Positions 5,170 to 62,122 of a DNA stretch of 64,000 nucleotides are shown here, in pieces (positions within the stretch are counted from its first letter, which is position 1; the number at the start of each line of letters is the position of its first letter). The DNA lies in the NCBI RefSeq assembly GCF_016595465.1, contig NZ_JAENIK010000005.1:29113-93112 (forward strand), in the 5' to 3' direction. Below the pieces are notes generated by a model. That model was not told the DNA's origin. It worked only from the letters and a program-made list of their open reading frames with translations, and did no database searches. This DNA is from Luteolibacter yonseiensis (lineage in GTDB: Bacteria; Verrucomicrobiota; Verrucomicrobiia; Verrucomicrobiales; Akkermansiaceae). The position numbers were made by a program, and so were the translations under genes.

Positions 5170-8100
5170 TTGGCCTCGAGTTTGATGACCAGTTTCTCCC
5201 AGAACAAGCTGGTGGATTGGTAATTCCACTGCCATTCGGCGCTGTGGGTGCTGCCGAACCCGCCGTGGGCGACGCCTTCGCCCCAGTCGTCCATATTCTG
5301 ATGGGCGAAGACGGCTCCCCGGGTCCTGAGGTCGGAACCCGCGGTGCGTGTCAGGGATTTGGTGACGAAGCCGAAGGCTTCGGCAACGTTGGTCACCTCC
5401 ACTTTCGTGGGTCCCGTGTCTCTCGTCATTTTGTAGGGGAAGCTCCCGGTCGGCGCGGCCCGGTATGAGTAGCCGTGGATGAGGTCCGGTTTGTAGAGGT
5501 GGTTGTTGGCCACCCAATTGCCGAGGGCGCTGTCGTTGGGCAGACCGAAGTTGAAGAAGTTCGGCGCTCCGGCCACGTTGTGGAATTTGTCCTTGAGGCC
5601 GTAGGTGTCGCGGAAGGTTGGCGACGGGTCAAGGTCCGGACACTCCTGGGCGGAGCCGGATGGAAATATATAACCGAGGAACTCCGAGGTTCCCGGATCA
5701 TACCTCAGGGCGGTATTGTTGTCGTATGCCATGGCGCTCATCGCGGCATTGCACATGGAGTAGTTCTTGACCTGCATTCCGGCCCTGAGTGCGGAACCCA
5801 CGACCACGTTGCCCATGCTGTGGGCGAATATGCACCTCCGTGCGGGGTAGGGCAGGCCATTGACAAACTGGGCCATCGCGGGACCACAGAGCCATGCCCG
5901 GTATTCGCTGGGGTTGTAGGTGAGCACGCCGTCGGCTCCGGAGAAGGTGGCCCAGCGGAAGGCATAGAAGTCTCCCTTGAATCCCTGGTGCCAGAGGCGC
6001 TTGAAGGAGGTCTGGGAGTTCTGCATGGAGTAGTTGTAGGTGTTGTTCCAGCCGTGGACGTAGACCATGGAGACGGGTTCCGCATCCGGGTCGGGGGAAT
6101 AGGGCCAGTTGTAGGGATCCCATGTCCAGGTTTGGGCCGGAGGGTTGGTGCTCACCCAGGGTTGGGGGATCTGCTCGGCCTCGTTCTGGATGCGGGCACG
6201 GCGGTACATGTTCCGGACGTCGAGCAGATTGATCCATGTGCCGGCGCTTTCTCCGATCTTGGTGCCGTTCTTGTTCATGACGACCATGGCGAGTTTGCCG
6301 AGACCCACCGATTCTCCCTCGAAGATGAAGTTCGCGGTGCTGTCGCTCCGGTGGCTCCAGAAGGAGGGCGGGATCTGGACGAGTCCGTCGCTTGAGGTGA
6401 AGCAGGCTTCCGAGCGTTGTCTTGTCGCGGCGGTGCCGTTGTTGAGGTAGGACAGGCTTCCCCAAGGATCCTGGTTCGGCCAGACCTTGATCCGTGGTTT
6501 TCCGGATTTGATTTCGGTGAACTTGAGGCCCACCTTGATTTCGCCGCTTACCAGATCCCTGGTGCTGAAGCCGGTGTTGAGGTTGAGACGGGTGAAGTCC
6601 TCGAGGTCCCTGTTGGTCTTGATCTGGTTGTCGAGCCAGTCACGGTCGTTGGTCCCGAACTCCGGATCCTCGCTGTCCTCGTCTTCGTCATTGTCGTTGT
6701 TGATCCAGAAGCGGAAGGGTTTGGCGACGGTGGCCTTGCTCTCGTCATAGCTGAGGTAACCGTCGCGGTTGGTGTCGACATTGGGGCCTCCGAGGCGGCT
6801 GCCGCTGATCCTTACCTGGACAACTTCGTTCTCCCCGGCCTCGGCGACCTTGTAGATGGTCCGTGTCTCACCCGCCGGGACGATGATGATTTCGATGCTG
6901 TTGGTGACGCCGATTTCGGTATCCATGTCCGGAGTGCGGGTCCTGGCGATGTAAACGACCTCCGGGTTGGTCTTGGATGCGGTGACTTCGATCTTGATGT
7001 CCTCGACGTCCTCGTATGGGCCGGTATATCCCTTGGAAAAGATGCGGCCAGTGATGAGCTGGTCGAGGTGGGTGGGCTCATAGGCCTGGGCCGGCCATGG
7101 AAGGGAGTTGAAGTTCCGCGCCAGATAGGAACGGACGTCCGAAATCCGTTCCTCATGGGTGAGCGGCCGGCCGAGGACGATCTTGTGTTCGTATCCGGTG
7201 CTGGTATGGGATTGTTCGTCGTCCTTGGAGGCGTCGTTGTTGATCCAGGTCGGGAAGTTGTCGAAATAGGGAGACCAGGAGGATGGAGGATCGGTTTTGG
7301 TGGTTTCCTGTCCTGCGGAGGGGGTGTTTCCCCAGACTTCGGTGGTGGTGGTGGTGCCTTGCGCCGTGGCTGTCTTGAGGGCGGCTGTGGTCTTGGATTT
7401 GAGATAGCCGCCGCTGCCGCTCGGCGGGGTCTTGAGTTCCCAGCTCTCGTTGTGATGTCCCCATGTGGAGACCGTCTCTTCCCAGTGGATAGTCGCTTCG
7501 TGTTGGTAGAATCCCGGCATTTCGAAGGTGGTGATGTCCGATTCCCCGGGTTCCGTCACCGTCCACTGGGATTCCTTGGTATAGTTGTAGTCTTCCGATT
7601 CGGTGTCGTTGTCAGTGTCCGTGTCGTCGCCGGAGTCATAGATCTTGGTTTCCGTCTTCTTGAGGTAGCAGACGGGGACTTCCGCGATGACATTCGGATC
7701 GTAGTTGGGTGCGGTCGTGGGATCATACAGTCCCGGGTAGCCCGAGGAATGGTAGGCGGATGCGCGGCGAAGCTTGACGGAGTATTTGGGGGTGTCTCCG
7801 GCCTGGTTGCCGGAGCCGGCGTTCTGGCCGCTTCCGTGGGAGTTCTGGTAGTCCTCGACCATGTTGAGGCCGTATTGGGTGTTGCCGGAGGAGGGGTTGA
7901 CGTTGGTGAGGAGGGTGGGGGTCTGGCCGCTGGTGTAGAGCCACTGGGCGTAGTTTTTCTCCCAGTCGTCCGGGATGCCGTCGGCATCGGTGTCGGTGTT
8001 GGGGATGAGCTGGACGATGCCCAGGGCGGAATAGCTGTGGGAGCTGATGATGCCGCCGGAGGAGATGTGGATGGGCAGGAGAGCGCTCGCGCTGGTGGAA

Positions 8101-33290: not shown

Positions 33291-33343
33291 AGGGGTTTTT
33301 TCTCGTATGGGGGAGGGGGTGTCATTATTGGTCAGGGATGTCC

Positions 33344-34396: not shown

Positions 34397-34399
34397 GGA

Positions 34400-34466
34400 G
34401 AATCAAGAATCAAGAATTAAGAATTAAGAATTAAGAATTAAGAATTAAGAATTAAGAATTAAGACT
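34400..34466 (+). repeat. Heptamer tandem repeat after the GT25-like gene
   Basis: About nine units of AAGAATT (first two AAGAATC), directly after the stop codon. Confidence 0.9.
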
Positions 34467-34637: not shown

Positions 34638-37600
34638 ATGAATTATCAACTCAAGAACAGCATCAGAAACCTCCCCGTGGTGGCACCGGAAGAGAACGGG
34701 AGCGGGAAGACGTACCAGGTGGCGAGCAATTATGATTCCTACGGCCGCCTGGTCTGGGAGAAGTCGCCGCGTGGCTTCATCACGAACTACGTCTACGACG
34801 TGGCGACGGGAGCGGTGGTCCGCAAGATCGAGGACGCGCTGGTGACGCCGCTTTCGGGCGCGCCGGAGGGATGGGTGACTCCGCCGGGCGGAGGGCTGCA
34901 CCTGGTGACGGATTATGACATCGACCGCTACGGCCGCGTGATCCGCGAGCTGGGGCCGGTCCACAACGTGCAGCTGGCGCCGACGGATGCGTTCACGACG
35001 GCGGTGCGGCAGGTGGCCTACACGCTTTACCTGGATGCGGCGCAGGAGGTGAGGCGCGCGAACGGCCATGCCACGGGATCGGCGGGAAGCTATACTTTCA
35101 AGACGGTGGGCGCGGTGACGATCACTCGCACGAAGCTGGTGGAGGGCGGCACGGTGGAGGAGAGGATCGAGGCGACGCGGGAGTGCGACGTCGGGATGCT
35201 GACGGCGGGGGAGGATTTCGACGACCGCTGCCGCTGGAGCAAGTGGTCGTTCGAGACGACGGACCAATGGGGCAAGGTGAGCGAGGGACGAGTCTACCAC
35301 GTCATCCCGGCGACTGGATCCGGAACGGTGGGGACGCATTATGAGAAGGTGGAGTATGGTTATGACGCGATGAAGCGCCTGGTCCGCGTGAAGGACGAGA
35401 CGGGCACGATCACGCGCACGGTGTATGACGCGCGGGGGCTGGTGACGGCCACCTGGGTGGGCACGGATGACACGGGTGCGACGGACGCGATGCCGAGGCC
35501 GGTGGTCACTCCGGCGACGGCGAACAACATGGTGCTGGTGGCGGAGAATGTTTATGACAACGGTGCCGCGGGAGGGGACGGCCTGCTGACGAAGATCGTC
35601 CGCAAGGCGGGTGATGATCCGGAGGACGACCGCGAGGAGCTCCGGGCGTATGATTCGCTCGGAAATCTGACGGAGGTGAGGACTTCCGATGGTGATATGG
35701 ATTTGTTGGCGGTTTATGGCTATGATTCGCTGGGCCGGGTGAGGGAGGTGGTGCGCTACCGTGACTCGGTGGGCGCGGGGAATTTCCTCGGCAAGGAGGT
35801 GAACCACCATGACAGCGAGGGCCGGATCTACCGCCATGAGGTGTGGGGTGCGGAGGATGGCGTGCTGACGGCGGCACCGCTGGTTTCGAACCGCTGGTTC
35901 GACGCTTCCGGGAACCTGATCAAGGAAACCGGTCCGAGTTCGAACGCGGCGGTGAAGTATGTTTATGACGGCGTGGAGCGGAACCTCGCGAGATATGTGG
36001 TGATCGAGGGCGACCATCCGGTGACCTCGGGCGGGAGCGGGAGTTCGAGCCTGGGTGGCGAGCTGAGTTCCTCATCGGCCTCGGGCAGCAACGAGTGGGG
36101 TTTTTCGTCCGATTCGGATTCGGACAAGGCGTCGAGTTCATCGAGCTCGTCGGGTTCCCCGAGCAGCAGTTCTAGCAGTTCCAGCAGTTCCGGCGGCAGT
36201 CCGTCGAGTTCCGGCTCCGGTTCGGAGTCTTCGGGTTCGGAATCGTCCGGCTCCGAGTCTTCCGGCTCGGGAGATTCATCCGGAGATGGCTCGGGTTCGG
36301 GGGGCTCGGATGATGGAAGCGATGACGGATCGGGAAGCGGCGATTCGAGCGGTTCGGAGACCGATCCGATGGCGAGTTGTCCGGATTGTGACGAGGACTC
36401 GGGTGTGGGTGAGTCGGGCGCGGGTGTCGGCACCGATGACGGATCGGGCGCGCCGTCCTGTCCGATGGAGCAGAGCGAGGGACCCGTCCGCTATGCGACC
36501 GGGGAACTGCTCCACAAGGCGGTCGACCTTTCGTGGAAGGGTTTTGGTTTCAAGTGGGGTCACACCCGCAGCTACTCGAACCGCATGGGCCGCGATGGCG
36601 ACGGACTCAACGGCTACCGCTGGCTGCTGAAGGAGCTTTCGCACGTGGCGCAGAACCAGGGCCCCGACAGGAACCTGATGGCGGTGGTCACGGGGGCGAA
36701 TTCCACGACGTGGATCGAGCCTCGCACGGATGGCAGCCTGCGGAGTCTTTTCGGGCACCGTTCCCAGATGATCGCCGAGGGCACCGGCCTGAAGCTGCAT
36801 CTTCCGGACGGCAGCTTGAAGAAATTCTACGGCAACACTCCGGCGGTGGCGAAGAAACTGCGCGGGCGGATGAAGTCGCTCGTCAACCGCAACGGCAACG
36901 AGATGACGCTGACCTATTACAGCGACGGCCGCCTGGACAAGGCGCAGTGGGCGGGCGAGGGCCGCACCGGTGTGTTCAATTATGATTATTTCACCTCCGA
37001 CGTGGGAAGAAACGGACGCATCTGCGCCATCACGCAGACCATCGATGGCGTGAACCTCCAGCGCGTGCGCTATGATTACTATCAGGTGGAGTCGGGTGGT
37101 TCTCCGGGCGATCTCAAGATCGCGCTGGTGGAGCAGTGGAACACGGAGACGGGGACCTGGGTGGAGATCCGCCGGAACTACTACCGCTATTATGTGGCGG
37201 GCGAGGCGAACGGATTCGCCCATGGCCTGAAGATGATCATCGGTCCGGCGGGATGCCGGCGCATGATGACCGGGGGTGTTTCCTTCGTGACCACGACCGA
37301 CGAGGAGCTGCTCGGCTTCAGTGATTTCTACTTCGAGTATGACGGCGCGCGCCGCGTGAAGCATGAGAAGATCAACGGCGGGTCGATGCCCTACTCGTTC
37401 GAGTATTGGAAGAATCCGACGGAGCCGTCGCTTTCACAGGTGAACACCTGGGCGACGCGGACCACCGAGACGAGGCCGGACGGCAGCAAGAACATCGTTT
37501 ACAGCAATGCGGGTGGAAAGGCGATCCTCAGCATCCTGAGGGCGGTGGGTGGCGCGAGCTGGCATACCTACCGCGAGTATAACTCCGACTATCAGACCAC

Positions 37601-40600
37601 GCTTGACGCGCGTTCGTCCGCCATCGCCGGCGTGACGGAGCCGGTCATCGGCGGATCGTCCACGCTGACGGTGACGCTGTCGGACACCGGGCGGGTGAAG
37701 ATTTATGATTATAACGAGGAGACGGATCCCGTGGCACCGCGTTATCTCAAGTCGGTCTCGGAGCAGCCGGGCGGGAATTCCAGCCTGCGGGAGATGCTGA
37801 AGTCCCACAGTTATGGCAAGCACGGGGACGTGGCCGGCGGATTCAAGGGCGTGGTCACGAAGACGGCGACCGAGACGAAGGTGGGCGGGAAGACCCTGAG
37901 GGAGACGAAGGATTACCAGTTCCACGACGGGGCGGCGATCGTGACGCCACCGGGCGCGGGCGGGACGTATTACCCGCCGAACTACATCTCGGACGACTAT
38001 GTGCACCTGCAGGAGACGAGAACGTATGACAAGGGAGGAAACATCATCCTCACCTCGCGGAGCGAGCGCTACCACGACGAGACGGCGCGCGGTCCGCTCT
38101 ACGGGGCGAACCCGGGGCCGGGTCTGGCGAAAGGCCGGCGCACCTACACCGCCTATTGGCCGGATGCCATCGGCCGCGTGAGGGCGACCGCGGAGTATGG
38201 AACGAACAGCGGAGCGGATCTCACCCGCCCCGGCGTGCCTCCCGCGACCTCGGACAGCGTGCTTGTCACCACCCGCCGGTTCGCCGGGAACGGTGAGGCG
38301 AACGCCATCGTGGACACCTTGGGCCGCGTGACGAGTTGGAAATCCGACGCCCGGGGCCGCCGCACCGAACTGGTCGAGAATGAGGTGGACGGCGGCACGG
38401 CCACGGACCAGAACCGGACGACGAATTATGAATATCACTCGAATTCGCAGCTGCGGAAATTGATCGTGAAAAACGCGGTCACGGGCGACCAGGAGACCGA
38501 GTGGTGCTATGGCGTGACGCCCGCGGGAGGCTCGGCCATCGCCCACAACGGCCTGGTGCGGCGGAAGAAGATGGCGGACGGAGGTTCTTATACGAATCAA
38601 TACAACCGCCAGGGGCAGGCGATCCGTTACACCGATCCGAACGGCACCGTGCACGAGTACGAGTATGACAAGCTGGGCCGCCTGGTCCATGACTCCGTGA
38701 CCGCGTTCGGCACCGGGATCGACGATCTCGTCACCGGCATCAGCCGTGGCTATTCGGACCAGGGCCAGCTCGCCGTGGTCTCCAGCCATCGGGTGGGCGG
38801 CACGGTGAACCAGGTGCGTTTCGAATACAATGCGTGGGGCCAGCTCGCGGCGGACCGGCAGTCCGTCATCGGGAGCGTGATCTCCACGACGCCGTCCGTC
38901 ACCTATGGATATCGGGATGGCACGGGGAACGACATCCGTCCGGTTTCCATCACTCATCCGTCCGGACGCAAGATCAACTACCGCTACGGCACGGCGGGAG
39001 GGTTGAACGAGCAACTGGGCCGCATCGGAAGCCTGAGGGTGGAGGGAGCGACGGTGGATCTCGTTTCCTATCAATATGTCGGACTGGACAGGTTCATCCG
39101 GACGAGCTATGTGGAGGGAGGCATGGAACTGAACTACAATTTCACCGGAGGCAATTCCGGGGACCCCTACGGCGGCTGGGACCGCCACGGGCGGACCCGC
39201 GAGATGCGCTGGATGAAGGGTTCCACGCAGATCGACCGCCACGCCTACACCTACGACCGCGCGGGCCAGCGGCTGACCCAGACGAACAGTCCGGGCGGCA
39301 CGAACGAGAGCCAGGCCTTCGTTTACGACGGGCTGCGCCAGCTCAAGAACCGCATCCGCGGCGGCACCATCCGCATGGAGGAGTTTTCGTATGATCCGAT
39401 CGGGAACTGGACGGGCTACGACGTGTGGGAGGACGGCGTACAGACGCTCGACCAGAGCCGGGTGCACAATGCCTCGAACATGCTGACGCAGATCGATGGA
39501 TCCAGCGCGTTGCTGGCCCACGACGCGACTGGGAACCTGACCCAGTGTCCGCCGGATGTGGGCGGAAGCTGGAGCGATTCCCACCAGTTGAAATGGGACG
39601 CGTGGAACCGCCTCGCGGAAGTGAGGGACGGCAGCGGGGATCTCATCGCCGCCTATGAATACGACGGCCTCATGCGCCGGACGAAGGCGGTCACGCCGGA
39701 CCTTGCCACCGACACTTATTACAACCACATGTGGCGTCCGGTGGAGGAGCATCTCGACGACGGTTCAACCACGACGACGCACAGTTACGACTGGGGCCTG
39801 CGCTACCGGGACGACCTGGTGCGCCGCGTGCGCAAGGAGGGAAGCGGCACGCCGGTGGTCCACTACGCGCTGCACGACTACTACAACGTGACGGCCATCA
39901 CCAGCTCGACAGGCACGGTGCTGGAGCGCTACCGCTACAGCGGCTTCGGCGAGGTGGGCTTCCTGACGGCGGCGTATGCGGACAAGTCCGCGAGCGATTA
40001 CCAGTGGAACATCCTGCACAAGGCGCAGATGCGTGACGAGGGGACGGGGTGGTACAACTACGGGTATCGGTATTACTCGCCTTTGCTTGGGAGGTTTATC
40101 AACAGGGATCCGATTTGGGAAGAAGGTGGAACAAACGTCTACGCATTTGTATTGAATAATGGGATCAACGGGACGGATCTTTATGGACTCACGCCGGATA
40201 TGGATACCCGAGGACGAATCGATCGATCATGGGACGAATTGATGAAGGATTATTCTGATCGAGGATTGGAAATGACTGAAAAGCAGAAAAAGGCTCTCAT
40301 GAGGGGTTGTATTGGTCTTGCTTTGTGCAAGCTGAACAGGACCAATGGGTTCCCTGAAGAGGATGTGAATACAACCTGTTATCAAACGGAAAAGGAGACT
40401 GATGGCACCAAGTGCGGCCCCGGTCAGAGAAAAGTGGTCTTCGCAAAACAAGGTAAATATACCGAGCCCGATGGCCCAAAGAAGTGGCCCGATGGTGCGA
40501 TCCCCAAGAACTCTGTTGAAGCTTCTGACGGGAAGGCTGGGTATAACTATGTGACAAGATATCCCACAAAAGATGGATTCAGGTATGGGTGGGGCGATCA

Positions 40601-40727
40601 TGCCTGGATATATGGGGATCAAAACTTCACTTTCCATGATGTGCCGGCGAATGACAGGCGCTATCCGGACAGCATGTGGTGCGCGGCCTGCGTTCCTTGT
40701 AAAGGAGGAGATGGTTCTGAAAAGTAA
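34638..40727 (+). CDS. RHS/YD-repeat polymorphic toxin protein
   Basis: A 2029-aa protein. Residues 1-450 carry YD repeats (YDSYGRLVWE, YDAMKRLVRVKDETGTITRTVYD). A Ser/Gly/Asp-rich linker fills 455-590. PVRYATGELLHKAVDL (about 610) opens the main RHS barrel with many G-x-x-x-x-Y-x-Y-D units (YEYDKLGRLVHD, YTYDRAGQRL, YDYNV). The core ends with YYSPLLGRFINRDPI (about 1808-1825) and YAFVLNNGINGTDLYGL. The last 178 residues form a tip of lower GC with RGCIGLALCKLN, CYQTEKE and GDHAWIYG, of unknown activity; Cys/His chemistry is possible. There is no signal peptide, PAAR or TIR at the N-terminus. A candidate immunity gene follows after 6 nt. Toxin delivered to rivals is inferred from the family. 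Confidence 0.9.
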   Translation: MNYQLKNSIRNLPVVAPEENGSGKTYQVASNYDSYGRLVWEKSPRGFITNYVYDVATGAVVRKIEDALVTPLSGAPEGWVTPPGGGLHLVTDYDIDRYGRVIRELGPVHNVQLAPTDAFTTAVRQVAYTLYLDAAQEVRRANGHATGSAGSYTFKTVGAVTITRTKLVEGGTVEERIEATRECDVGMLTAGEDFDDRCRWSKWSFETTDQWGKVSEGRVYHVIPATGSGTVGTHYEKVEYGYDAMKRLVRVKDETGTITRTVYDARGLVTATWVGTDDTGATDAMPRPVVTPATANNMVLVAENVYDNGAAGGDGLLTKIVRKAGDDPEDDREELRAYDSLGNLTEVRTSDGDMDLLAVYGYDSLGRVREVVRYRDSVGAGNFLGKEVNHHDSEGRIYRHEVWGAEDGVLTAAPLVSNRWFDASGNLIKETGPSSNAAVKYVYDGVERNLARYVVIEGDHPVTSGGSGSSSLGGELSSSSASGSNEWGFSSDSDSDKASSSSSSSGSPSSSSSSSSSSGGSPSSSGSGSESSGSESSGSESSGSGDSSGDGSGSGGSDDGSDDGSGSGDSSGSETDPMASCPDCDEDSGVGESGAGVGTDDGSGAPSCPMEQSEGPVRYATGELLHKAVDLSWKGFGFKWGHTRSYSNRMGRDGDGLNGYRWLLKELSHVAQNQGPDRNLMAVVTGANSTTWIEPRTDGSLRSLFGHRSQMIAEGTGLKLHLPDGSLKKFYGNTPAVAKKLRGRMKSLVNRNGNEMTLTYYSDGRLDKAQWAGEGRTGVFNYDYFTSDVGRNGRICAITQTIDGVNLQRVRYDYYQVESGGSPGDLKIALVEQWNTETGTWVEIRRNYYRYYVAGEANGFAHGLKMIIGPAGCRRMMTGGVSFVTTTDEELLGFSDFYFEYDGARRVKHEKINGGSMPYSFEYWKNPTEPSLSQVNTWATRTTETRPDGSKNIVYSNAGGKAILSILRAVGGASWHTYREYNSDYQTTLDARSSAIAGVTEPVIGGSSTLTVTLSDTGRVKIYDYNEETDPVAPRYLKSVSEQPGGNSSLREMLKSHSYGKHGDVAGGFKGVVTKTATETKVGGKTLRETKDYQFHDGAAIVTPPGAGGTYYPPNYISDDYVHLQETRTYDKGGNIILTSRSERYHDETARGPLYGANPGPGLAKGRRTYTAYWPDAIGRVRATAEYGTNSGADLTRPGVPPATSDSVLVTTRRFAGNGEANAIVDTLGRVTSWKSDARGRRTELVENEVDGGTATDQNRTTNYEYHSNSQLRKLIVKNAVTGDQETEWCYGVTPAGGSAIAHNGLVRRKKMADGGSYTNQYNRQGQAIRYTDPNGTVHEYEYDKLGRLVHDSVTAFGTGIDDLVTGISRGYSDQGQLAVVSSHRVGGTVNQVRFEYNAWGQLAADRQSVIGSVISTTPSVTYGYRDGTGNDIRPVSITHPSGRKINYRYGTAGGLNEQLGRIGSLRVEGATVDLVSYQYVGLDRFIRTSYVEGGMELNYNFTGGNSGDPYGGWDRHGRTREMRWMKGSTQIDRHAYTYDRAGQRLTQTNSPGGTNESQAFVYDGLRQLKNRIRGGTIRMEEFSYDPIGNWTGYDVWEDGVQTLDQSRVHNASNMLTQIDGSSALLAHDATGNLTQCPPDVGGSWSDSHQLKWDAWNRLAEVRDGSGDLIAAYEYDGLMRRTKAVTPDLATDTYYNHMWRPVEEHLDDGSTTTTHSYDWGLRYRDDLVRRVRKEGSGTPVVHYALHDYYNVTAITSSTGTVLERYRYSGFGEVGFLTAAYADKSASDYQWNILHKAQMRDEGTGWYNYGYRYYSPLLGRFINRDPIWEEGGTNVYAFVLNNGINGTDLYGLTPDMDTRGRIDRSWDELMKDYSDRGLEMTEKQKKALMRGCIGLALCKLNRTNGFPEEDVNTTCYQTEKETDGTKCGPGQRKVVFAKQGKYTEPDGPKKWPDGAIPKNSVEASDGKAGYNYVTRYPTKDGFRYGWGDHAWIYGDQNFTFHDVPANDRRYPDSMWCAACVPCKGGDGSEK

Positions 40728-40733
40728 AACAAT

Positions 40734-41147
40734 ATGAAAAAAACATTAAAATCATTAATCACATGCATTTCTTTGGTTTTCATCGCCGGTTCCATTCCGG
40801 TGGTTCTGGCGGAGAAGGAAGCTGATATCAAACAGAAAATTAAATACGCGGGAATCGAAAATCCGAAAGAGAGGCTGTATTTCTGTATTGAAGTATTGTC
40901 TGATGGCACTGTGAAGCGGGGGATGATTCTTCCGCAGCTTCAGGAGATATTCGACAAGAAGATTGAAGAGATAGGAGACCTTGAAGATGGCGGCAAGTTG
41001 TATAACCTTGACTTTGAAAAAGCCCCCGATCTTTCCAAGGAATATGGTCTTGAATATCCTAGTCCATTCATAGGATGGTACCTTCGGATGGAGATGGACA
41101 AGTATGGTAAACTCGAGAGATATCATTTGTCAAACCTGCACAAGTAG
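40734..41147 (+). CDS. Candidate immunity protein for the main RHS tip
   Basis: A 137-aa protein with a signal peptide (MKKTLKSLITCISLVFIAG to VLAEKE), then an acidic helical body (LPQLQEIFDKKIEEIGDLEDGG) and GWYLRMEMDKYGKLERYHLSNL. It begins 6 nt after the RHS stop, in the place where RHS immunity genes normally lie, and has the low GC of the tip. A periplasmic immunity protein fits a toxin that acts in the periplasm. No family recognised; the role is inferred from place. A terminator follows at 41230. Confidence 0.6.
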   Translation: MKKTLKSLITCISLVFIAGSIPVVLAEKEADIKQKIKYAGIENPKERLYFCIEVLSDGTVKRGMILPQLQEIFDKKIEEIGDLEDGGKLYNLDFEKAPDLSKEYGLEYPSPFIGWYLRMEMDKYGKLERYHLSNLHK

Positions 41148-41229
41148 CAGAGTTGTCCTCACGGACGGCATCATCTGAAACCCTCGTCGGACGCGGCTTC
41201 TAGAGGTCGCGCCCGGCATGCTTGATTTT

Positions 41230-41273
41230 CAGGCTTGTCACGCCGATGCGGTGTGGCAGGCTTGGTTTGTTTT
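41230..41273 (+). terminator. Terminator repeat, copy 1, ending the main RHS-immunity unit
   Basis: CAGGCTTGTCAC (41230-41241) pairs with GTGGCAGGCTTG (41253-41264), with G-U pairs, then TTTGTTTT. The same structure precedes the other two orphan cassettes. Confidence 0.7.
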
Positions 41274-41348
41274 GGGGAGGAAATCAAAAGCCGGGGCTGT
41301 AGTAGTGGCGCTCATTTCTACGAGAGCTGGCGGTGGCTCCATCGACAA

Positions 41349-41598
41349 TTCCAGAGATCCATACGGCGGCTGGGACCGCCACGGGCGCACCCGCGAGATG
41401 CGCTGGATGAGGGGTTCCACGCAGATCGACCGCCACGCCTACACCTACGACCGCGCGGGCCAGCGGCTGACGCAGACGAACAGCCCGGGCGGCACGAACG
41501 AGAGCCAGGCGTTTGTTTACGACGGGCTGCGCCAGCTCAAGAACCGCATCCGCGGCGGCACCATCCGCATGCCAAAGGCCAAAATGAATCGGGCTTGA
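41349..41598 (+). pseudogene. Orphan RHS core fragment 1, tip deleted
   Basis: The 225 bases 41349-41573 match 39151-39378 of the main RHS gene at about 95 percent (DPYGGWDRHGRTREMRWM; YTYDRAGQRLTQTNSPGG). The match begins exactly at AATTCC as in the other cassettes. After CGCATG the core is cut and runs into ATGAATCGGGCTTGA, 28 nt before the next gene. No tip remains, but an immunity-like gene follows. Confidence 0.85.
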
Positions 41599-41626
41599 AT
41601 AATCACAAGGAAACATATAATAATCA

Positions 41627-42136
41627 ATGCACATGAATATGAACCACCTGGACCTGTCGCTGATGGAGCATGAAATAAAACTGGTGTTCGATTCATTATT
41701 CAATGAATCGACGGAAATTGATGCTAGTGGAACCCTTGATGGTGAATTTTTGGAGATGTTCAACCAAAAAAACTATGACGAAATTCCGGAAGTAATAGGA
41801 AATCTGGCGGCGTTCCCATTTTTTTCTCTCGTTCCAGAAGAGGTTGGGAAATGCTATCTCGGAGGATATTTGATCTATTTTGTACAAATGATTAAGAAAT
41901 CCAGGGATGATTTTTCCGCCACCGGCAGTCCGATGGTTTGCGGTGTGGAATATGAAAACTTGTTCGATTTCCTGAGCCGAAAATCGGTGGTTGCCTGGGT
42001 TGGTTCCAACAAATCGATGTCTTATATCATTCGGAAATTTTTGGATGTGGTGTCCAACACCGTTGCCTTGCAGCATCGGGAGGAAGACCTGATTCAAATC
42101 GCCCATATAAGAGACTCCATCATCGCGGATGTCTGA
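41627..42136 (+). CDS. Candidate orphan immunity protein
   Basis: A 169-aa acidic cytosolic protein (HLDLSLMEHEIKLVFDSLFNESTEID, GYLIYFVQMIKKSRDDFS, VNTVAL-like VSNTVALQHREEDLIQIAH). Lower GC than its surroundings. It lies after a tipless RHS core fragment and before terminator copy 2, so it is most simply the immunity gene of a lost tip. No family recognised. Starts at 41627, 41633 and 41639 are all possible; no ribosome site decides. Confidence 0.6.
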   Translation: MHMNMNHLDLSLMEHEIKLVFDSLFNESTEIDASGTLDGEFLEMFNQKNYDEIPEVIGNLAAFPFFSLVPEEVGKCYLGGYLIYFVQMIKKSRDDFSATGSPMVCGVEYENLFDFLSRKSVVAWVGSNKSMSYIIRKFLDVVSNTVALQHREEDLIQIAHIRDSIIADV

Positions 42137-42216
42137 TTCATAGAGGGCATCACGGATGTCGTCAGACTTCATATGGCGGCATCCCGAGCCTTCGAAAAAC
42201 ACCGTGCTGCGCCCAG

Positions 42217-43917
42217 GTGTCGCACGGGATTCCTTTCCAAGCTTGTCACATCCATGTGGTGTGGCAGGCTTGGTTTGTTTTGGGGAAGAAATCAAAATTC
42301 GGCACTGTAGCAGTGGCGCTCGTCTCATCGAGAGCTGGTGGACACTGCGGCGGCAATTCCGGGGACCCCTACGGCGGCTGGGACCGCCACGGGCGGACCC
42401 GGGAGATGCGCTGGATGAGGGGTTCCACGCAGATCGACCGCCACGCCTACACCTACGACCGCGCGGGCCAGCGGCTGACGCAGGCGAACAGCCCGGGCGG
42501 TACGAACGAGGGCCAGGTTTTCGTTTACGACGGGCTGCGCCAGCTCAAGAACCGCATCAGGGGCGGCACCGTCCGCATGGAGGAGTTTTCGTATGACCCC
42601 ATTGGGAACTGGACGGGCTACGACGTGTGGGAGGACGGCGTGCAGACGCTCGACCAGAGCCGGACGCACAATGCCTCGAACATGCTGACACAGATCGATG
42701 GATCCAGCGCGCTGCTGGCCCACGACGCGGCCGGGAACCTGACCCAGTGTCCGCCGGATGAGAGCGGAAGCTGGAGCGATTCCCACCAGTTGAAATGGGA
42801 CGCGTGGAACCGCCTCGCGGAAGTGAGGAACGGCAGCGGGGGGCTCGTCGGCGCCTATGAATACGACGGCCTCATGCGCCGGACGAAGGCGGTCACGCCG
42901 GATCTGGTCACGGACACCTACTACGGCGAGGAATGGCGTCCGGTGGAGGAGCATCTCAACGACGGTTCCATCACGACGACGCACAGCTACGACTGGGGCC
43001 TGCGCTACCGGGACGATCTGGTGCGCCGCGTGCGCAAGGAGGGAAGCGGAACTCCCGTGGTCCACTACGCGCTCCACGATTACTACAATGTGACGGCGAT
43101 CACCAGCTCGACGGGCACGGTGCTGGAACGCTACCGCTACAGCGCCTTCGGCGAGGTGGGCTTCCTGACGGCGTCGTATGCGGCGAAGTCCGAGAGCGAC
43201 CATCATTGGAACATGCTGCACAAGGCGCAGGCGCGTGATGCCGAGACGGGGTGGTATAATTATGGATTCCGATATTATTCGCCACTGTTGGGGAGGTTCA
43301 TCAACCGGGATCCGATCGAGGAGGATGGAGGCATCAACCTGTACGCGTTCGTTGAAAACAACGGTGTGAACGGGACCGACTTCCTCGGGTTGCAGCCAGC
43401 GATCAGCCAACGGGAGGCGGTGAAGCGGCTGGGGCTGACGACACCGCCGAAGACACCGGCGCAGGCACCGGCACCGGCACAGACACCGCCGCAGAACAAC
43501 GGGAAAGACACGGATGCGGTGGGGGTTGAGGGGGCGCAGAAGGCCTCCGAACTGACCAGAAAAGATCCCGAAAAAAGGGAGTACTGCGGTTCCATCTGCT
43601 GCGAAAACGGTAAGAAGACCCGCACCGACCCCAAACCAGGCACACCGAGCGGATGCGACGCCACGGTCGTTTCTCCATGTGTCTCACCGGCTACGATGGT
43701 AGGTCAGTATCATTCCCATCCGGGAAATACCGATTTCAGCGAGAAGGATTATGTTTCAACCGATGCGGGGGGCTCCAACTACCTGGGAAGACCTGACGGG
43801 GTGCGCCGGCTTGACAAGGCTTTCGAGGGCGGAGCCACGGTCCCGAAAGCCTATACGAGGGGTAATGACGGAAATTTCCACGGTCCTTATATCCCCCCCA
43901 ATCTCAAGGGCAGATAA
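42217..43917 (+). CDS. Orphan RHS core with DUF4329-like metalloprotease tip
   Basis: Open for 566 codons. The first 45 read through the terminator repeat and are probably not protein; RHS homology starts at 42354 (NSGDPYGGWDRHGR) and runs to YYSPLLGRFINRDPI and GTDFLGL, matching the last third of the main RHS. A new tip follows: a Pro/Ala-rich spacer (TPAQAPAPAQTPP), CGSICCENGK, and VGQYHSHPGNTDFSEKD, whose H-x-H-x6-S-x2-D resembles the JAB/MPN-like DUF4329 site (canonical JAMM has seven residues between). There is no clear start codon, so this is a silent donor that could replace the tip of the main RHS gene by recombination in the shared core. Confidence 0.8.
   Translation: MSHGIPFQACHIHVVWQAWFVLGKKSKFGTVAVALVSSRAGGHCGGNSGDPYGGWDRHGRTREMRWMRGSTQIDRHAYTYDRAGQRLTQANSPGGTNEGQVFVYDGLRQLKNRIRGGTVRMEEFSYDPIGNWTGYDVWEDGVQTLDQSRTHNASNMLTQIDGSSALLAHDAAGNLTQCPPDESGSWSDSHQLKWDAWNRLAEVRNGSGGLVGAYEYDGLMRRTKAVTPDLVTDTYYGEEWRPVEEHLNDGSITTTHSYDWGLRYRDDLVRRVRKEGSGTPVVHYALHDYYNVTAITSSTGTVLERYRYSAFGEVGFLTASYAAKSESDHHWNMLHKAQARDAETGWYNYGFRYYSPLLGRFINRDPIEEDGGINLYAFVENNGVNGTDFLGLQPAISQREAVKRLGLTTPPKTPAQAPAPAQTPPQNNGKDTDAVGVEGAQKASELTRKDPEKREYCGSICCENGKKTRTDPKPGTPSGCDATVVSPCVSPATMVGQYHSHPGNTDFSEKDYVSTDAGGSNYLGRPDGVRRLDKAFEGGATVPKAYTRGNDGNFHGPYIPPNLKGR
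42237..42281 (+). terminator. Terminator repeat, copy 2
   Basis: CCAAGCTTGTCAC (42237-42249) pairs with GTGGCAGGCTTGG (42261-42273) over 13 bp with two G-U pairs, followed by TTTGTTTT. Confidence 0.7.
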
Positions 43918-43974
43918 TATAAAGCATCCGTGAGCCGATGATGTTTTCGTATTCTTTTGAATAAAGCAAAATCC

Positions 43975-44574
43975 ATGAAAAACAGTATGAAAATATTATC
44001 GGTGCCGATGCTCGCCATCGGATTCATCCATTCCAATCTGGCGGCGGGGGAAGTCTCCGTCGCCAGTTATCTGGACAAGTCCGTTTCGTGCGAAATTTCG
44101 GAAAAATCGCTGACCGGGGCCGTCCATGCCCTCATGCAAAAAGTGAGTGCCGATGATCCTGCCGCGAGGAATATCAAATTTGAGTTCGTGAACAGCAGCC
44201 AGTTTGACGAGCGCAAACAGTTCGAATTGAAGTTTGACGACGTCAAGCTGTCAAAAGTCCTGTATCAAATCGGGATGGTCTACAAGCATGCCGTGAATTA
44301 TGACTTCCGAAGGAATACGGTCGTATTCACCGCGGCGGGGAACGGCAGCGATGACGAAAGGGATTATAAAATCACCAGGTCGGTTTCTGACAAACTGGGC
44401 CTGGACTGGAGCTCGGAGGCGGAGCTCGAAAAGTCTCTGGACAAGTTCGGTGTGGGCGCGACGCTTGTGAAAACCAATTTGTCCGAGCGGACGTTCACCG
44501 CCAGCGGGCTGCCTGCTTCGTTGGATCATATCGACATGTTGATTTATGTTTTCTCGCAGAAAGTCACGGAATAG
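43975..44574 (+). CDS. Secreted STN-like protein, candidate immunity protein of the orphan tip
   Basis: A 199-aa protein with a signal peptide (MKILSVPMLAIGFIHSNLAAGE). The body resembles the short secretin/TonB N-terminal domain: VSCEISEKSLTGAVHALMQKV, IKFEFVNSS, FELKFDDVKLSKVLYQIGMVYKHAVNYDFRRNTVVF. The end is ERTFTASGLPASLDHIDMLIYVFS. It lies 57 nt after the DUF4329 tip and has a close paralog at 45002. Place suggests immunity; the fold, usual in outer-membrane secretion and receptor proteins, would be an unusual one for that job. ATG at 43975 is fixed by alignment with the paralog. Confidence 0.7.
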   Translation: MKNSMKILSVPMLAIGFIHSNLAAGEVSVASYLDKSVSCEISEKSLTGAVHALMQKVSADDPAARNIKFEFVNSSQFDERKQFELKFDDVKLSKVLYQIGMVYKHAVNYDFRRNTVVFTAAGNGSDDERDYKITRSVSDKLGLDWSSEAELEKSLDKFGVGATLVKTNLSERTFTASGLPASLDHIDMLIYVFSQKVTE

Positions 44575-44638
44575 GGTGGTCTGGTCGGGGTGTTCCAGCG
44601 CATGCTGATGTCCCGATCCGATTTCCCTGTATTTACTT

Positions 44639-44683
44639 CCAAGCTTGTCACGCCCATGTGGTGTGGCAGGCTTGGTTTGTTTT
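44639..44683 (+). terminator. Terminator repeat, copy 3
   Basis: CCAAGCTTGTCAC (44639-44651) with GTGGCAGGCTTGG (44663-44675) and TTTGTTTT, 65 nt after the STN-like gene. Confidence 0.7.
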
Positions 44684-44756
44684 GGGGAAGAAATCAAAAG
44701 CCGGGGCTGTCATAAGGGCACTCGTTTCAAAAAGGGCTGCGGGTGGTTCCGGCGGC

Positions 44757-44945
44757 AATTCCAGAGACCCCTACGGCGGCTGGGATCGCCACGGGAGGAC
44801 CCGGGAGATGCGCTGGATGAGGGGTTCCACGCAGATCGACCGCCATGCCTACACCTACGACCGCCATGCCTACACCTACGACCGCGCGGGCCAGCGGCTG
44901 ACGCAGGCGAACAGCCCGGGCGGCACGAACGAGGGACAGTTAATA
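44757..44945 (+). pseudogene. Orphan RHS core fragment 2, tip deleted
   Basis: Matches 39151 onward of the main RHS gene and carries a 21-bp duplication (ATGCCTACACCTACGACCGC twice). It stops at GAGGGACAG and continues directly into TTAATATAAAAGATCCGTGAG, which is the sequence after the tip in the previous cassette (43912 on). The rest of core and tip are deleted. Confidence 0.85.
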
Positions 44946-45001
44946 TAAAAGATCCGTGAGCCGATGATGTTTCCGTATTCTTTTGAATAAATCAAAAATC
45001 C

Positions 45002-45601
45002 ATGAAAAAAAGTATGAAAATATTATCGATGCCGATGCTCGCCATCGGATTCATCCATTCCAATCTGGCGGCGGCGGAGGAGATTTCCGTAGCGGGTTAC
45101 CTGGATAAGAGGATTTCGGTGGAGTTTTCCGAGAAGTCGCTGACGAGGGCCGTGCATGCGGTCATGGATAAGATGCGCGCGGACGATCTGGATGTGCTGA
45201 GATTGAATTTCGAGTTCAAGAACTCAAGCAAGTTTGACGAGCACCGTGAGATCACGATGAAGCTGGAGAACATGAGGTTTTCGGAGGTTCTCTATCATGT
45301 GGGAACGGCCTTCAAGCATGGGGTGAATTATGATTTCAGGAGGAATACCATCATTTTCACCGCCGCCGGAGGAGGGGAGGATGATGTGAGGAGATATCGG
45401 ATCACGGAGGCGGTGTCCGCGAGGCTGGGTTTGAACTGGGCCTCGGAAGCGGAACTGGAGAAGTCGTTGGACAAATACGGGGTGAAGGCGGCGCTTGTGA
45501 AGACCAATCCGGCGGAGCGGACGTTCACGGCCAGCGGGATGCCTGATTCGTTGGATCATATCGACATGTTGATTTATGTTTTTTCAAGGATGCCGGAATA
45601 G
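45002..45601 (+). CDS. Secreted STN-like protein, second copy
   Basis: A 199-aa protein with a signal peptide (MKKSMKILSMPMLAIGFIHSN). Residue by residue it follows the protein at 43975 (VEFSEKSLTRAVHAVMDKM, KFDEHREITMKLENMRFSEVLYHVGTAFKHGVNYDFRRNTIIF, ERTFTASGMPDSLDHIDM), about 60-65 percent identical by eye. The 58-nt upstream segment is also shared. It belongs to a cassette that has lost its tip. No terminator repeat follows; the array ends here. Immunity against a DUF4329-type tip is inferred. Confidence 0.7.
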   Translation: MKKSMKILSMPMLAIGFIHSNLAAAEEISVAGYLDKRISVEFSEKSLTRAVHAVMDKMRADDLDVLRLNFEFKNSSKFDEHREITMKLENMRFSEVLYHVGTAFKHGVNYDFRRNTIIFTAAGGGEDDVRRYRITEAVSARLGLNWASEAELEKSLDKYGVKAALVKTNPAERTFTASGMPDSLDHIDMLIYVFSRMPE

Positions 45602-46438: not shown

Positions 46439-46570
46439 GGATTTATCGGAGGATGGAGGATGGAGGATGGAGGAGGAGGATGGAGGATGGAGGATGGAGG
46501 ATGCACGGATGCATGGATGCATGGATGCATGGATGCATGGATGCATGGATGCATGGATGCATGGATGCAT
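46439..46570 (+). repeat. Tandem repeats GGATGGA and GGATGCAT
   Basis: GGAGGATGGAGGATGGA units (46448-46502), then eight perfect units of GGATGCAT (46507-46570). Confidence 0.9.
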
Positions 46571-46683
46571 GGATGATGAGGATCTGATAGGTCCGGATCC
46601 GGTGGATTTTTGGAGTGATGCGGAGGTGACGTGCTTTTGAAGTTACGGGGCCGGGTGGAGACGGAACACCGTTTGTTCCGCCG

Positions 46684-48387: not shown

Positions 48388-48597
48388 GAGACAAGAGACC
48401 AGAGACAAGAGACCAGAGACCAGAGACCAGAGACCAGAGACCAGAGACCAGAGATCAGAGACCTGAGACCTGAGACCTGAGACCTGAGACCTGAGACCTG
48501 AGACCTGAGACCTGAGACCTGAGACCTGAGACCTGAGACCTGAGACCTGAGACCTGAGACCTGAGACCTGAGACCTGAGACCTGAGACCTGAGATCC
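48388..48597 (+). repeat. Heptamer tandem repeat, 30 units
   Basis: GAGACCA units, then a long run of GAGACCT units; 210 bp in total and in exact 7-bp register. Followed by four ATCTACG units (about 48600-48632) that reach into the end of the next gene. Confidence 0.95.
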
Positions 48598-49772: not shown

Positions 49773-49785
49773 GATAAAGTGGCGG

Positions 49786-49860
49786 TGTGGTGTGGTGTGG
49801 TGTGGTGTGGTGTGGTGTGGTGTGGTGTGGTGTGGTGTGGTGTGGTGTGGTGTGGTGTGG
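49786..49860 (+). repeat. Pentamer tandem repeat, 15 units
   Basis: Fifteen perfect TGTGG units. Confidence 0.95.
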
Positions 49861-49985
49861 TGGGTTTGGGATCTTGAGCACCAAAGGGCGTGATGGGATA
49901 GCAAGGGTGGGCGTTCCGGGATGATGGTTTTTGCGGCGGCGGGGGTCTTGAGGGGACGTGGTCGAGGCGGGATCGACGCGGCAGG

Positions 49986-54443: not shown

Positions 54444-55220
54444 ATGGTTGCCGAGGATCATGAGGAGGGTTTCCTGCTGCTCTCGACGGGGGATGGGAGG
54501 AAGCAGTGGTTGTTCAATCTGATCGAATCGATCCGGGAGTTTTATCCGGAGGCGCCGGTGCATGTGCTGACGGATGCTCCGGTGGATGTGCCGCACACGT
54601 TGATCGGGGCGGGGACGGGGCTGGATTCGCGTTTCTACAAGACGCGGCTTTATCATCATTCACCGTTCGGCAGGACGATTTTCCTGGATGATGACACGAT
54701 CGTGAACGGTTGTTTCGGGATGCTGGAGGGGTTGTTGGACGGGTGGGATGTGGGGATGGCGCTGGATCCTTTCGCGACGCTGGGATTGTGGCGGGACAAT
54801 GTGTTGCGGAATTGCATGGGGCATTTTCCGGGGTGGGACGCGTTTGTGGGTTATGTGGACGGGGTGAAGGAGGACAGGCCGTTTTTCAACAGCGGGGTGA
54901 TGGTGTGGAGGCGGGGCGAGGTGGCGCGGCGGTTGTTCGACCGGTGGCACGGGTTGTGGCGGGACGGGGGGAGGGGGCCGGACCAGACGTGGCTGGCGAG
55001 GGCGGTCCTGGAACTGGAGGTGGAAGTGAGGGTGCTGCCGCAGGAGATGAATTTTTATCCGGTGGAGGGGCATCGGTTCGGGCACGGGAGTTATCCCCGG
55101 GCGGAGGAGGCGAAGGTGATTCATTATCTTTCGCACCATGGGAAGCGGGTGATGGAAGAGGCGGGAAGGAGGGCGCCGTTTCATCGGGCGTATTTGGAGC
55201 ATGTGGCCGGGAGGGGGTAG
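54444..55220 (+). CDS. GT8-like glycosyltransferase
   Basis: A 258-aa protein of GT-A fold. [27 protein letters not shown] opens the fold; [26 protein letters not shown] gives the DxD metal site (LDDD near residue 78); [25 protein letters not shown] is the typical acceptor-side motif (F-N-S-G-V); and the end has [29 protein letters not shown]. Layout is closest to GT8-like or nucleotide-diphosphosugar transferases. First gene of the sugar island. Product unknown, probably a cell-surface or particle glycan. Confidence 0.82.
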
Positions 55221-55395
55221 ATTGTGGATGGTGGATTGTGGATTGTGGATTGTGGATTGTGGATTGTGGATGGTGGATGGTGGATGGTGGATGGTGGATG
55301 GTGGATGGTGGATGGCCGGGTGCTGTGGCGACAGGCGGGGGCTTTGGTTTTTGAACCACGGATGGACACGGATGAACACGGATTAAGAAGACGGA
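55218..55395 (+). repeat. Tandem GTGGATT/GGTGGAT repeat plus shared 80-bp segment
   Basis: 55228-55312: about twelve 7-bp units. 55313-55395: GGCCGGGTGCTGTGGCGACA up to GAACCACGGATGGACACGG and GATGAACACGGATTAAGAAG, nearly identical to 58047-58127. Confidence 0.85.
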
Positions 55396-57919: not shown

Positions 57920-58127
57920 GAGTGGATAGTGGATAGTGGATAGTGGATAGTGGATAGTGGATAGTGGATAGTGGATGGGAGATGGAAGATGGAAGATGGA
58001 AGATGGAAGATGGATGATGGATGATGGATAATGGATAATGGATAATGGCCGGGTGCTGTGGCGACGGGCGGGGGCTTTGGATTTTGAACCACGGATGGAC
58101 ACGGATGAACACGGATTAAGAAGATGG
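57920..58127 (+). repeat. Tandem GTGGATA/GATGGAA/GGATAAT repeats plus shared 80-bp segment
   Basis: 57921-58046: about seventeen 7-bp units of changing sequence. 58047-58127 is the second copy of the segment at 55313-55395. Confidence 0.85.
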
Positions 58128-58128
58128 A

Positions 58129-58190
58129 AGATGGTGGATGGTGGATGGTGGATGGTGGATGGTGGATGGTGGATGGTGGATGGTGGATGG
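58129..58190 (+). repeat. Heptamer tandem repeat GGTGGAT
   Basis: About eight perfect units, ending in GGAATGAATATGG before the next gene. Confidence 0.9.
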
Positions 58191-60675: not shown

Positions 60676-61395
60676 ATGTCATTCCCACGCATCATCCACC
60701 AGTCATGGAAATCCAGCGGGCTTCCCGGATTCCTGGCCCGCCGCATTTCGACCGTCCGCGAGAAGCATCCGGATTGGGAGCATCGCTTCCACACGGAGGC
60801 GGACATGGAGGAGGTGGTGGCGGAGTGCGGGGTGATGCCGGTGGAGGATTTCCGCAGGATTCCGACGGAGGCGGGGAAGGAGGATGTGTTCCGGTGCGCG
60901 GTGTTGTTCCGGGACGGAGGGGTGTATTGCGATCCGGCGCTGGAGGCGGTGAAGCCGCTGGAGGAGATGTTCGGGATGGCGGTGTGGGACGGTTTTGTCT
61001 CGGGGGGCGAGGAGCTGCTGATGACGGTGGACCACCCGGTGCATTGCGAGGTGGTGCATGGCCAGGATGTGGTGATGAACGATTTCATGGTGGCGATGCC
61101 GCGGGCGCGTTTCCTCGGGATATACCTGGGCGAGGTGGCGGCGGCGGCGCGGGAGGGCAGGCTGGGCGGGGATCCGGCGGAGTCGACGGGGCCGCTGGCG
61201 ATCAGCCGGATGATCGACGAGCATGGGGGGCCGTCGGCGTGCGGGATCGCGCTGCTGCCGTCGTCGTGGGTGAGCCCGCTGCCGGACATGTCGCTGGATT
61301 TCCCGGAGAAGGATGAGTATGAGGGGATGATCGCGTCCGGGAGCTGGAGGAGGAAGATGGATCTGTATCTGGTGAAGGGGTGGGGGGAGAGTTGA
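60676..61395 (+). CDS. GT32-like glycosyltransferase with altered metal site
   Basis: A 239-aa protein. MSFPRIIHQSWKSSGLPGFL opens as in the protein at 55568, followed by WEHRFHTEADMEEVVAEC. The metal-site segment reads LFRDGGVYCDPALEAV, so the second Asp of the usual DxD (DLD in the other GT32 here) is Ala. Unless another acid takes over, catalysis may be reduced or lost. Then FMVAMPRARFLGIYLGEVA and GPLAISRMIDEHGG with the end SGSWRRKMDLYLVKGWGES. ATG at 60676 fits the family start; the longer frame from 60628 does not. The stop is followed by a tandem repeat. Confidence 0.85.
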   Translation: MSFPRIIHQSWKSSGLPGFLARRISTVREKHPDWEHRFHTEADMEEVVAECGVMPVEDFRRIPTEAGKEDVFRCAVLFRDGGVYCDPALEAVKPLEEMFGMAVWDGFVSGGEELLMTVDHPVHCEVVHGQDVVMNDFMVAMPRARFLGIYLGEVAAAAREGRLGGDPAESTGPLAISRMIDEHGGPSACGIALLPSSWVSPLPDMSLDFPEKDEYEGMIASGSWRRKMDLYLVKGWGES

Positions 61396-61535
61396 TGGTT
61401 GAGAGTTGATGGTTGATTGAAAGAGAAGAGGAAGAGTTGATGGTTGATGGTTGATGGTTGATGGTTGATGGTTGATGGTTGATGGTTGATGGTTGATGGT
61501 TGATTGAAAGAGAAGAGGAAGAGTTGAGAGTTGAT
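61392..61535 (+). repeat. Heptamer tandem repeat GTTGATG
   Basis: About ten perfect units at 61435-61505 with a GAGTTGATGG/AAAGAGAAGAGG flank on each side; the flank is a piece of repeat B, which shows repeat B carries the seed of such arrays. Confidence 0.9.
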
Positions 61536-61630
61536 GGGAGAGATGTGTGATTGGTGGGGGTGGTGGGAAGAGGTGGACAGGGGGATTTCCGGGTTTGGGG
61601 GACGCGTGCGGATGGGGTGGATATGCCAGG

Positions 61631-61730
61631 GATGCCGTCCTTTCAGGACTTCGATGTTCTTTGTAGATATTACCCGGGGCGGCGCTTCGCTTTGCCCCGG
61701 GCTGTCTCATTTCGCACCTTTGGTGCTGGA
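61631..61730 (+). repeat. Three-hairpin interspersed repeat, copy A9
   Basis: Stems GTCC/GGAC, CCCGGGG/CCCCGGG and GCACC/GGTGC. Last copy before the capsid gene. Confidence 0.85.
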
Positions 61731-61734
61731 GAGT

Positions 61735-61905
61735 GGGCGGGAGTTTGGGCGGGGGTTTGTGCGGGGGGTTGTGCGGGGGTTTGTGTGGGGGTTTGTGTGG
61801 GGGTTTGTGTGGGGGTTTGTGTGGGGGTTTGTGTGGGAGTTTGTGTGGGAGTTTGTGTGGGAGTTTGTGTGGGAGTTTGGATGAGGGTTTGGATGAGGGT
61901 TTGGA
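61735..61905 (+). repeat. 12-mer tandem repeat GGGGGTTTGTGT
   Basis: About thirteen 12-bp units, changing from GGGGGTTTGTGT to GGGAGTTTGTGT to GAGGGTTTGGAT. All frames stay open and give Gly/Cys/Leu or Val-rich strings that are not proteins. Confidence 0.9.
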
Positions 61906-62122
61906 TGGGATTTTTATTGTGGCGGTGTTATTGATTTGTCGTGCTCCCATTGTTTGTGGTATGTCTGTGTTTGTCAGACGGACCACTTAGGCGAGGGCCG
62001 CTCCACGGGGCGATCACCTTCTCAAGCCCAAGCCCGGCAAGCAGCAAGCGCTCTCGCCGGGTCCTTCATTCCGAGGCCCGAACAACGGGAGTGAACCTCA
62101 ACATTGACTTATCACTCATCAT
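61906..62122 (+). other. Leader of the major capsid gene
   Basis: Begins with GGGATTTTTATTG (partial AT-rich element), then a GC-rich stretch with an inverted pair CCCGGC/GCCGGG (about 62034-62065), and CTCATCAT before the start. It holds no gene. A promoter or leader for strong capsid expression is likely here. Confidence 0.4.

Follow-up and report, generated by a model that had tools for sequence, protein, structure and literature searches.

The RHS locus of Luteolibacter yonseiensis raises the question of how three copies of the core of one RHS gene, standing in tandem behind that gene, came to begin at exactly the same base. The locus lies in a stretch of 64,000 nucleotides (assembly GCF_016595465.1, contig NZ_JAENIK010000005.1, positions 29113–93112), hereafter called the window, from a genome of 5.73 Mb in 13 contigs with a completeness of 96.56%. 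It consists of a main RHS gene, whose core ends at about 40187 and is followed by a tip and a candidate immunity gene (gene 0), and of three orphan units (units 1–3) with immunity-like genes 1–3. With a probability of about 0.7, we read it as a displaced-tip (orphan) RHS array, in which one tip with its immunity-like gene is attached to the main gene and three older units, two of them without a tip, stand behind it.

Each of the three units follows one plan: a terminator-type hairpin, a linker of about 75 bp, a direct copy of the RHS core, a tip or its scar, and an immunity-like gene (Table 1). Three such units had been described in the original prediction, which was made from the letters of the sequence, and they are confirmed by comparison of the region 34–50 kb with itself (BLASTN), by the positions of the AATTCC motif, and by the hairpins. 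The alignment of the main-gene core with the units, run as had been suggested, gives 91–96% identity. Positions 39152–39377 of the main gene correspond to 41346–41571 in unit 1 (226 bp, 95.6%), 39146–40114 to 42348–43316 in unit 2 (969 bp, 91.0%), and 39145–39260 to 44749–44864 in unit 3 (93.1%), where the match is split and a second piece (44868–44933) follows because of a 21-bp tandem duplication. AATTCC stands at 39153 in the main gene and at 41347, 42355, and 44757 in units 1, 2, and 3; the common start had been recognized correctly, with coordinates that were off by 2, 2, 1, and 0 bases. All three orphan cores start on the same AATTCC base rather than at the random points that had been named as a sign of mere duplication debris. 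Homology to the main gene extends at most 8 bases upstream of this common start, the linker that precedes the orphan cores is absent from the main gene, and the linker/core boundary shared in the window measures at most about 14 bp. Three independent junctions on one base of a core of about 1 kb would not be expected by chance. Since the base is the same at all three, the junctions are best read as copies of one founding junction, and their identity would fit with its later copying by homologous recombination, for which the capacity of the core homology, claimed before, stands.

Table 1. Features of the RHS array (positions in the window)
Feature	Start	End	Strand	Description
Main RHS gene	34638	40727	+	2029 amino acids (aa); YD repeats; TIGR03696 (Rhs_assc_core) 59.1 bits, cut-off 32.5
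Tip of main RHS protein	40188	40724	+	179 aa
Candidate immunity gene 0	40734	41147	+	137 aa; N-terminus signal-peptide-like by eye; no confident family match
Linker 1	41229	41346	+	hairpin 41229–41265, then about 75 bp
Orphan core copy 1	41347	41571	+	copy of main 39153–39377; about 225 bp; short presumed scar to about 41600
Candidate immunity gene 1	41627	42136	+	169 aa; no signal peptide by eye; no family match
Linker 2	42237	42354	+	hairpin 42237–42273, then about 75 bp
Orphan core copy 2	42355	43389	+	reaches core end; TIGR03696 72.4 bits
Orphan tip 2	43390	43917	+	175 aa; DUF4329 (Tox-JAB-2); HSHP...S..D motif by eye
Candidate immunity gene 2	43957	44574	+	205 aa from TTG; 67% aa identity to gene 3
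Linker 3	44639	44756	+	hairpin 44639–44675, then about 75 bp
Orphan core copy 3	44757	44940	+	about 185 bp, including a 21-bp tandem duplication; deletion removed the tip as far as its stop codon
Candidate immunity gene 3	45002	45601	+	199 aa

The hairpins have 16–17 pairs with a near-perfect stem by eye and a T-rich tail. Stretches of 75–77 nucleotides containing them fold with −28.9 to −33.1 kcal/mol (z −3.6 to −4.0), and the three are the top terminator-like sites between 34.0 and 46.5 kb, where 21 such sites were found and 9.2 ± 3.4 expected. All 16 hairpin pairs form in three of three copies, four of them with variation on one side. Allowing up to 3 mismatches, a search of the 5.73-Mb genome for 25 bases from the 3′ arm and tail finds three sites, all in the array (reversed control, 0). 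The proposal of one terminator per unit needs a correction as to position: each hairpin precedes an orphan core and thus follows gene 0, 1, or 2, and no hairpin was found behind gene 3. Exact linker patterns had no match in viral_contigs and genome_contigs, nor had the RHS core in viral_contigs (these collections may omit records of the own genome). With nhmmer, the window linker matched nothing outside its own genome among 82 loci and the window. A 233-bp query matched just 46–57 bp, in or at the core, in four other genomes.

Between these constant parts the contents differ. The GC (guanine plus cytosine) fraction is 0.63–0.65 in the core and 0.45–0.53 in the tip region, and identity between the main gene and unit 2 drops from above 0.9 in the core to 0.30 past its end. 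Unit 2 had been named as the sole unit that keeps a tip, DUF4329/JAB-like in kind; it is indeed the only one, and its tip matches DUF4329 just over the cut-off: the tip scores 28.9 bits against 28.6 when scanned alone, and 26.1, below the cut-off, within the whole open reading frame (ORF). The core of unit 3 joins directly to the region that follows the tip in unit 2, and from this comparison it follows that unit 3 once had a tip; for unit 1, a former tip is presumed from its place. A small open frame, a candidate immunity gene, follows the tip or scar in four of four units (the main one included), and all four frames are open, those of the two tipless units among them. No match was obtained by blastp (E up to 1) between the main tip and tip 2, or between gene 1 and genes 0, 2, and 3, though unit 1 has the same linker on both sides. 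The N-termini of genes 0, 2, and 3, but not of gene 1, resemble signal peptides by eye, which would suggest that the putative toxins belonging to these three genes act outside the cytoplasm.

Family searches say little more about these products. None of the immunity-like genes matched an Imm family, PADLOC gave no match for tips or immunity-like genes, and NCBIfam gave weak matches only (E 0.06 or worse). The tip of unit 2 has no match in PDB. The main tip has none in Pfam at E up to 10; a weak local match around RGCIG (E 0.03 over 30 residues) leads to PDB 5m6q, named as a known transglutaminase structure in a figure legend of PMC11297309, so that the main tip may be transglutaminase-like, which we regard as a lead and not a result. 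Models of the two tips made without an alignment have mean pLDDT (predicted local distance difference test) values of 40.0 for the tip of unit 2 and 35.6 for the main tip. In 387 genomes of the phylum, the own included, the main tip had one other match (E 0.0016, 53 residues), rejected as chance, the frame of which overlaps a long ABC-permease-like ORF; in the plasmids searched it had no relative. A profile match of genes 2 and 3 to a transporter in PDB (E 0.16) and weak blastp similarity between tip 2 and each of genes 2 and 3 (E about 0.03) were likewise taken as chance.

The divergence of the copies bears on how long they were in use. The ratio of nonsynonymous to synonymous divergence (dN/dS) was estimated by the Nei–Gojobori method for single pairs. 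In the core, dS is 0.17 between the main gene and unit 1 and 0.35 between the main gene and unit 2, with dN/dS of 0.07 and 0.19. Linker copies differ at 17–24 of 109 sites and core copies (main gene included) at 2–7 of 107; since the synonymous divergence of the core is about that of the linker, the lower overall difference of the core is no sign of conversion. Taken together with the low dN/dS, this core dS of linker size indicates that most of the divergence among the core copies arose while they were translated and selected. For genes 2 and 3, dN/dS is 0.25 and dS 0.88, exceeding the differences in the core.

From these data we infer an order of events with recombination as its cause. An incoming tip–immunity segment would have joined the old RHS gene, at its left end via the homologous core, while its right end, the flank with the hairpin, would have joined once, illegitimately, at AATTCC within the core. 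The segment would then have stood between two direct core copies, and ordinary homologous recombination at the core could have added, removed, or exchanged further units, each new one inheriting the same junction, a course that may be compared with Jackson’s circular-intermediate model. The unlike contents between constant arms (gene 1; the main tip versus tip 2) are as such modular exchange would leave them. Displaced units would be silent, as the hairpin would stop read-through from the preceding gene; no clear start codon with a ribosome site was seen behind the hairpin of displaced units. Deletion would later have removed the tip of unit 3, and presumably also that of unit 1, but left the immunity-like frames open. 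The idea that orphans are independently expressed short RHS proteins was rejected because the frame of unit 2 opens before the hairpin (first start codon GTG at 42217, internal starts being possible) and because two tips are gone.

Several observations weigh against the displaced-tip reading. The genus was compared with one genome per species, so that tip exchange among strains of the species, and a former or future place of tip 2 on an expressed RHS gene, are conjecture. Searches of 98 other related genomes, of phage records, and of genome_contigs (pattern-based, with 51 pattern matches, 0 confirmed) gave no relative of the unit-2 tip, and 287 other genomes of the phylum gave none of genes 2 and 3; with no relatives among those searched, a foreign origin of the unit content is unsupported. 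A DUF4329 search of 73 genomes of the genus gave no match anywhere, the known tip of this genome and the 14 controls included, and is therefore uninformative. The main/unit 1 dN/dS comprises 8 synonymous and 2 other changes. Mosaicism among the cores of the main gene, unit 1, and unit 2 is weak, with five informative sites, three joining the main gene with unit 1 and two joining it with unit 2. The hairpins show no two-sided compensatory change, which in three copies has little weight. The immunity-like genes of units 2 and 3 belong to one family, as plain duplication of a pair would leave them.

This last point leads to the strongest alternative, namely that the RHS end with its flank was duplicated in place and then decayed, with no tip exchange and no function left. 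Such tandem duplication would produce three identical junctions and paralogous genes 2 and 3 (67% aa identity), and both the absence of tips from two of three units and the 21-bp duplication in unit 3 look like decay. However, neither gene 1 nor the pair of main tip and gene 0 has a blastp match (E up to 1) to the products of units 2 and 3, all four immunity-like frames are open, and the core and genes 2 and 3 have dN/dS of 0.07–0.25. We consider this explanation unlikely, though worth keeping in mind.

It is also worth considering whether the plan is general in the genus. RHS core matches are present in 49 of 73 genomes, the own included, and among the matches listed at least 10 of the 73 (G000, G006, G017, G020, G025, G027, G043, G054, G057, and G099) have at least two core matches on one strand within 10 kb. 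From other genomes 18 RHS stretches were taken, 11 of which were compared with themselves for linkers. The array of G099 reads main1, gene, linker, core, gene, linker, core, gene, linker, second RHS gene, gene, and diverged linker, and its orphan cores start at positions 2329 (first) and 2327 (second) of main1. Its linker is 96–97% identical in three copies, and a search of that genome at E up to 0.001 finds it six times, always at RHS/YD-repeat loci. In G017, the same threshold gives two matches of a 61-bp flank, one behind the first immunity-type frame of the array and one behind the last; nhmmer (82 loci and the window) relates this flank to the G099 linker, with E values of 8.7e-12 and 0.019 for its copies. 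The linker sequence in these genomes differs from that of the window, and a crude hairpin scan found no terminator at the linker places of G099 and G017. A constant linker is thus recurrent, but not universal, in RHS arrays of the genus; its place after an immunity-like gene recurs in G099 and G017 and is less exceptional than had been supposed. In G043, on the other hand, the orphan cores start at different points (locus L043, main-gene positions 5861 and 6437), and no linker was seen in several other arrays among the 11 self-compared stretches; both speak against the plan described above and show that it is not general. A 77-bp flank repeat at L043 is not taken as support, since by eye it resembles a dispersed repeat. 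It is doubtful, and somewhat less credible than tandem duplication, that tip/immunity units of the genus carry a standard 3′ element (the window linker; the G099/G017 family) that fixes the core boundary, and that they are cassettes with core and linker arms, moved by recombination there.

Some features of G099 stand apart from this plan. A second RHS/YD-repeat locus (L086, 8626–10743) has two linkers with 1277 bp copied from the upstream gene (94.6% identity) between them; it is an array of similar plan, the two linkers of which have no core-like end. At two other places (reversed L046, 6994 and 14223), the last 23 bp of the linkers nearly repeat the RHS core though no core follows. Between the main2 flank and main1, 20 of 23 bases agree, with 0.005 matches expected per locus (up to 5 mismatches, 200 block shuffles). 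The near-copy may be a native flank whose resemblance to the core seeded the founding junction, or a remnant of lost cores, or a recombination site; in the window, no linker stands behind the last unit for comparison. A recombination site would extend to a dedicated cassette system, in which the linker end is an enzyme-recognized site and units are inserted at the core like integron cassettes; the constant linker and fixed boundary of both the window and G099, and the 23-bp near-copies without a following core (0.005 expected per locus) would suit it, but we hold it very improbable, as the integron integrase model TIGR02249 has no match over the cut-off in the genome (none of 14 control genomes held a true one, so that the power of the search is unproven) and its five sub-threshold matches occur likewise in all 14 controls, the boundary shared in the window spans no more than about 14 bp, the two flanks in G099 may be left over from lost cores, and ordinary recombination suffices.

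The order of domains in the main RHS protein (34638–40727) is permuted relative to the second RHS protein of G099. The block matching aa 4–467 comes first in the main protein and, in G099, lies between the blocks of aa 864–1103 and aa 1114–1850; in the RHS protein of G017 (L054), a similar block likewise stands directly before the core block. A serine-rich stretch is N-terminal in the proteins of G099 and G017 and internal in the main protein. An assembly error is possible as the source of this order.

The phage-flanked location noted in the original prediction is borne out and can be sharpened. According to PHROGs, genes for the small and large terminase and a head–tail adaptor lie at 25.4–32.3 kb, a block in which one gene has a weak phage-protease match and looks scaffold-like by eye, and a major head protein gene lies at 62.1 kb. 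A large gene at contig position 93442 has relatives near the head gene in three related prophages. The distance from the scaffold-like to the head gene is 1.4 kb in a related prophage (G049) versus 29.8 kb in the window, and the RHS array is part of a cargo of about 30 kb (32300–62120) inside the head module, between these two genes. No phage genes of this prophage were found by tblastn in RHS stretches of other genomes (18 and 9 stretches of 5–20 kb each). Within the cargo, the gene at 33338–34396 matches a phage glucosyltransferase, and other genes resemble glycosyltransferases and regulators by eye. A dispersed repeat, CTCATTCCGCACCTTTGGTGCTGGAG, occurs on the + strand at 727, 974, 33001, 46399, 50060, and 61706 (six copies at up to 3 mismatches, 0 expected). 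Short tandem arrays, often of 7-base units, lie between cargo genes at 34399–34464, 46448–46575, 48395–48594, 49784–49862, 55216–55315, 57921–58190, and 61387–61907.

Comparable arrangements have been described in other bacteria. Displaced rhs tips are known as an intact rhs gene followed by partial core and tip fragments, with a GC-rich core and AT-richer tips, and a circular intermediate through the core was proposed for them (Jackson 2009, PMC2935791). The window shares with them the intact gene, the core/tip fragments, and the GC contrast of core and tip; there, however, the core fragments vary in length, whereas in the window the core of every unit begins on the same base after a constant linker with a hairpin, and two units are tipless. 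Orphan rhs-CT/rhsI modules downstream of the main pair, which in Salmonella LT2 share 522 bp with it at 95% identity (Poole 2011, PMC3150448; Koskiniemi 2014, PMC3967940), resemble the window in having an orphan tip, an immunity-type gene, and several hundred base pairs shared with the main gene. These two papers report tests of function and recombination, in other bacteria and with other tips and immunity genes, while the window is known from its sequence. For immunity arrays of the type VI secretion system in Vibrio cholerae, sequential displacement with one homologous and one illegitimate end was proposed, old immunity genes being kept and effectors lost (Kirchberger 2017, PMC5361080). In those arrays as in the window, immunity genes outlast effectors; the relevant sections of that paper mention no constant linker or repeated core start. 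The Tox-JAB-2 clade overlaps DUF4329, and Imm-NTF2-2 is listed as its immunity family, Verrucomicrobia being absent from the table row for the toxin (Zhang 2012, PMC3482391). The tip of unit 2 resembles Tox-JAB-2 in its DUF4329 match and, by eye, in its HSH...S...D residues; unlike the pairing given in that table, gene 2 matches no Imm family and looks exported by eye.

Displaced tips, silent cassettes, core-mediated fusion, and immunity kept after effector loss are thus already in print, and it is the shared, base-exact linker/core junction that is less usual; a literature search on orphan rhs immunity cassettes gave no title concerning such linkers. One base-exact junction of foreign and core DNA separates two steps, a rare illegitimate join and then homologous copying, and such an array would make the circle proposed by Jackson testable by polymerase chain reaction. 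The array further suggests that immunity-like genes outlive the tips to which they belong, and its location gives such a store of parts a prophage as a possible vehicle.

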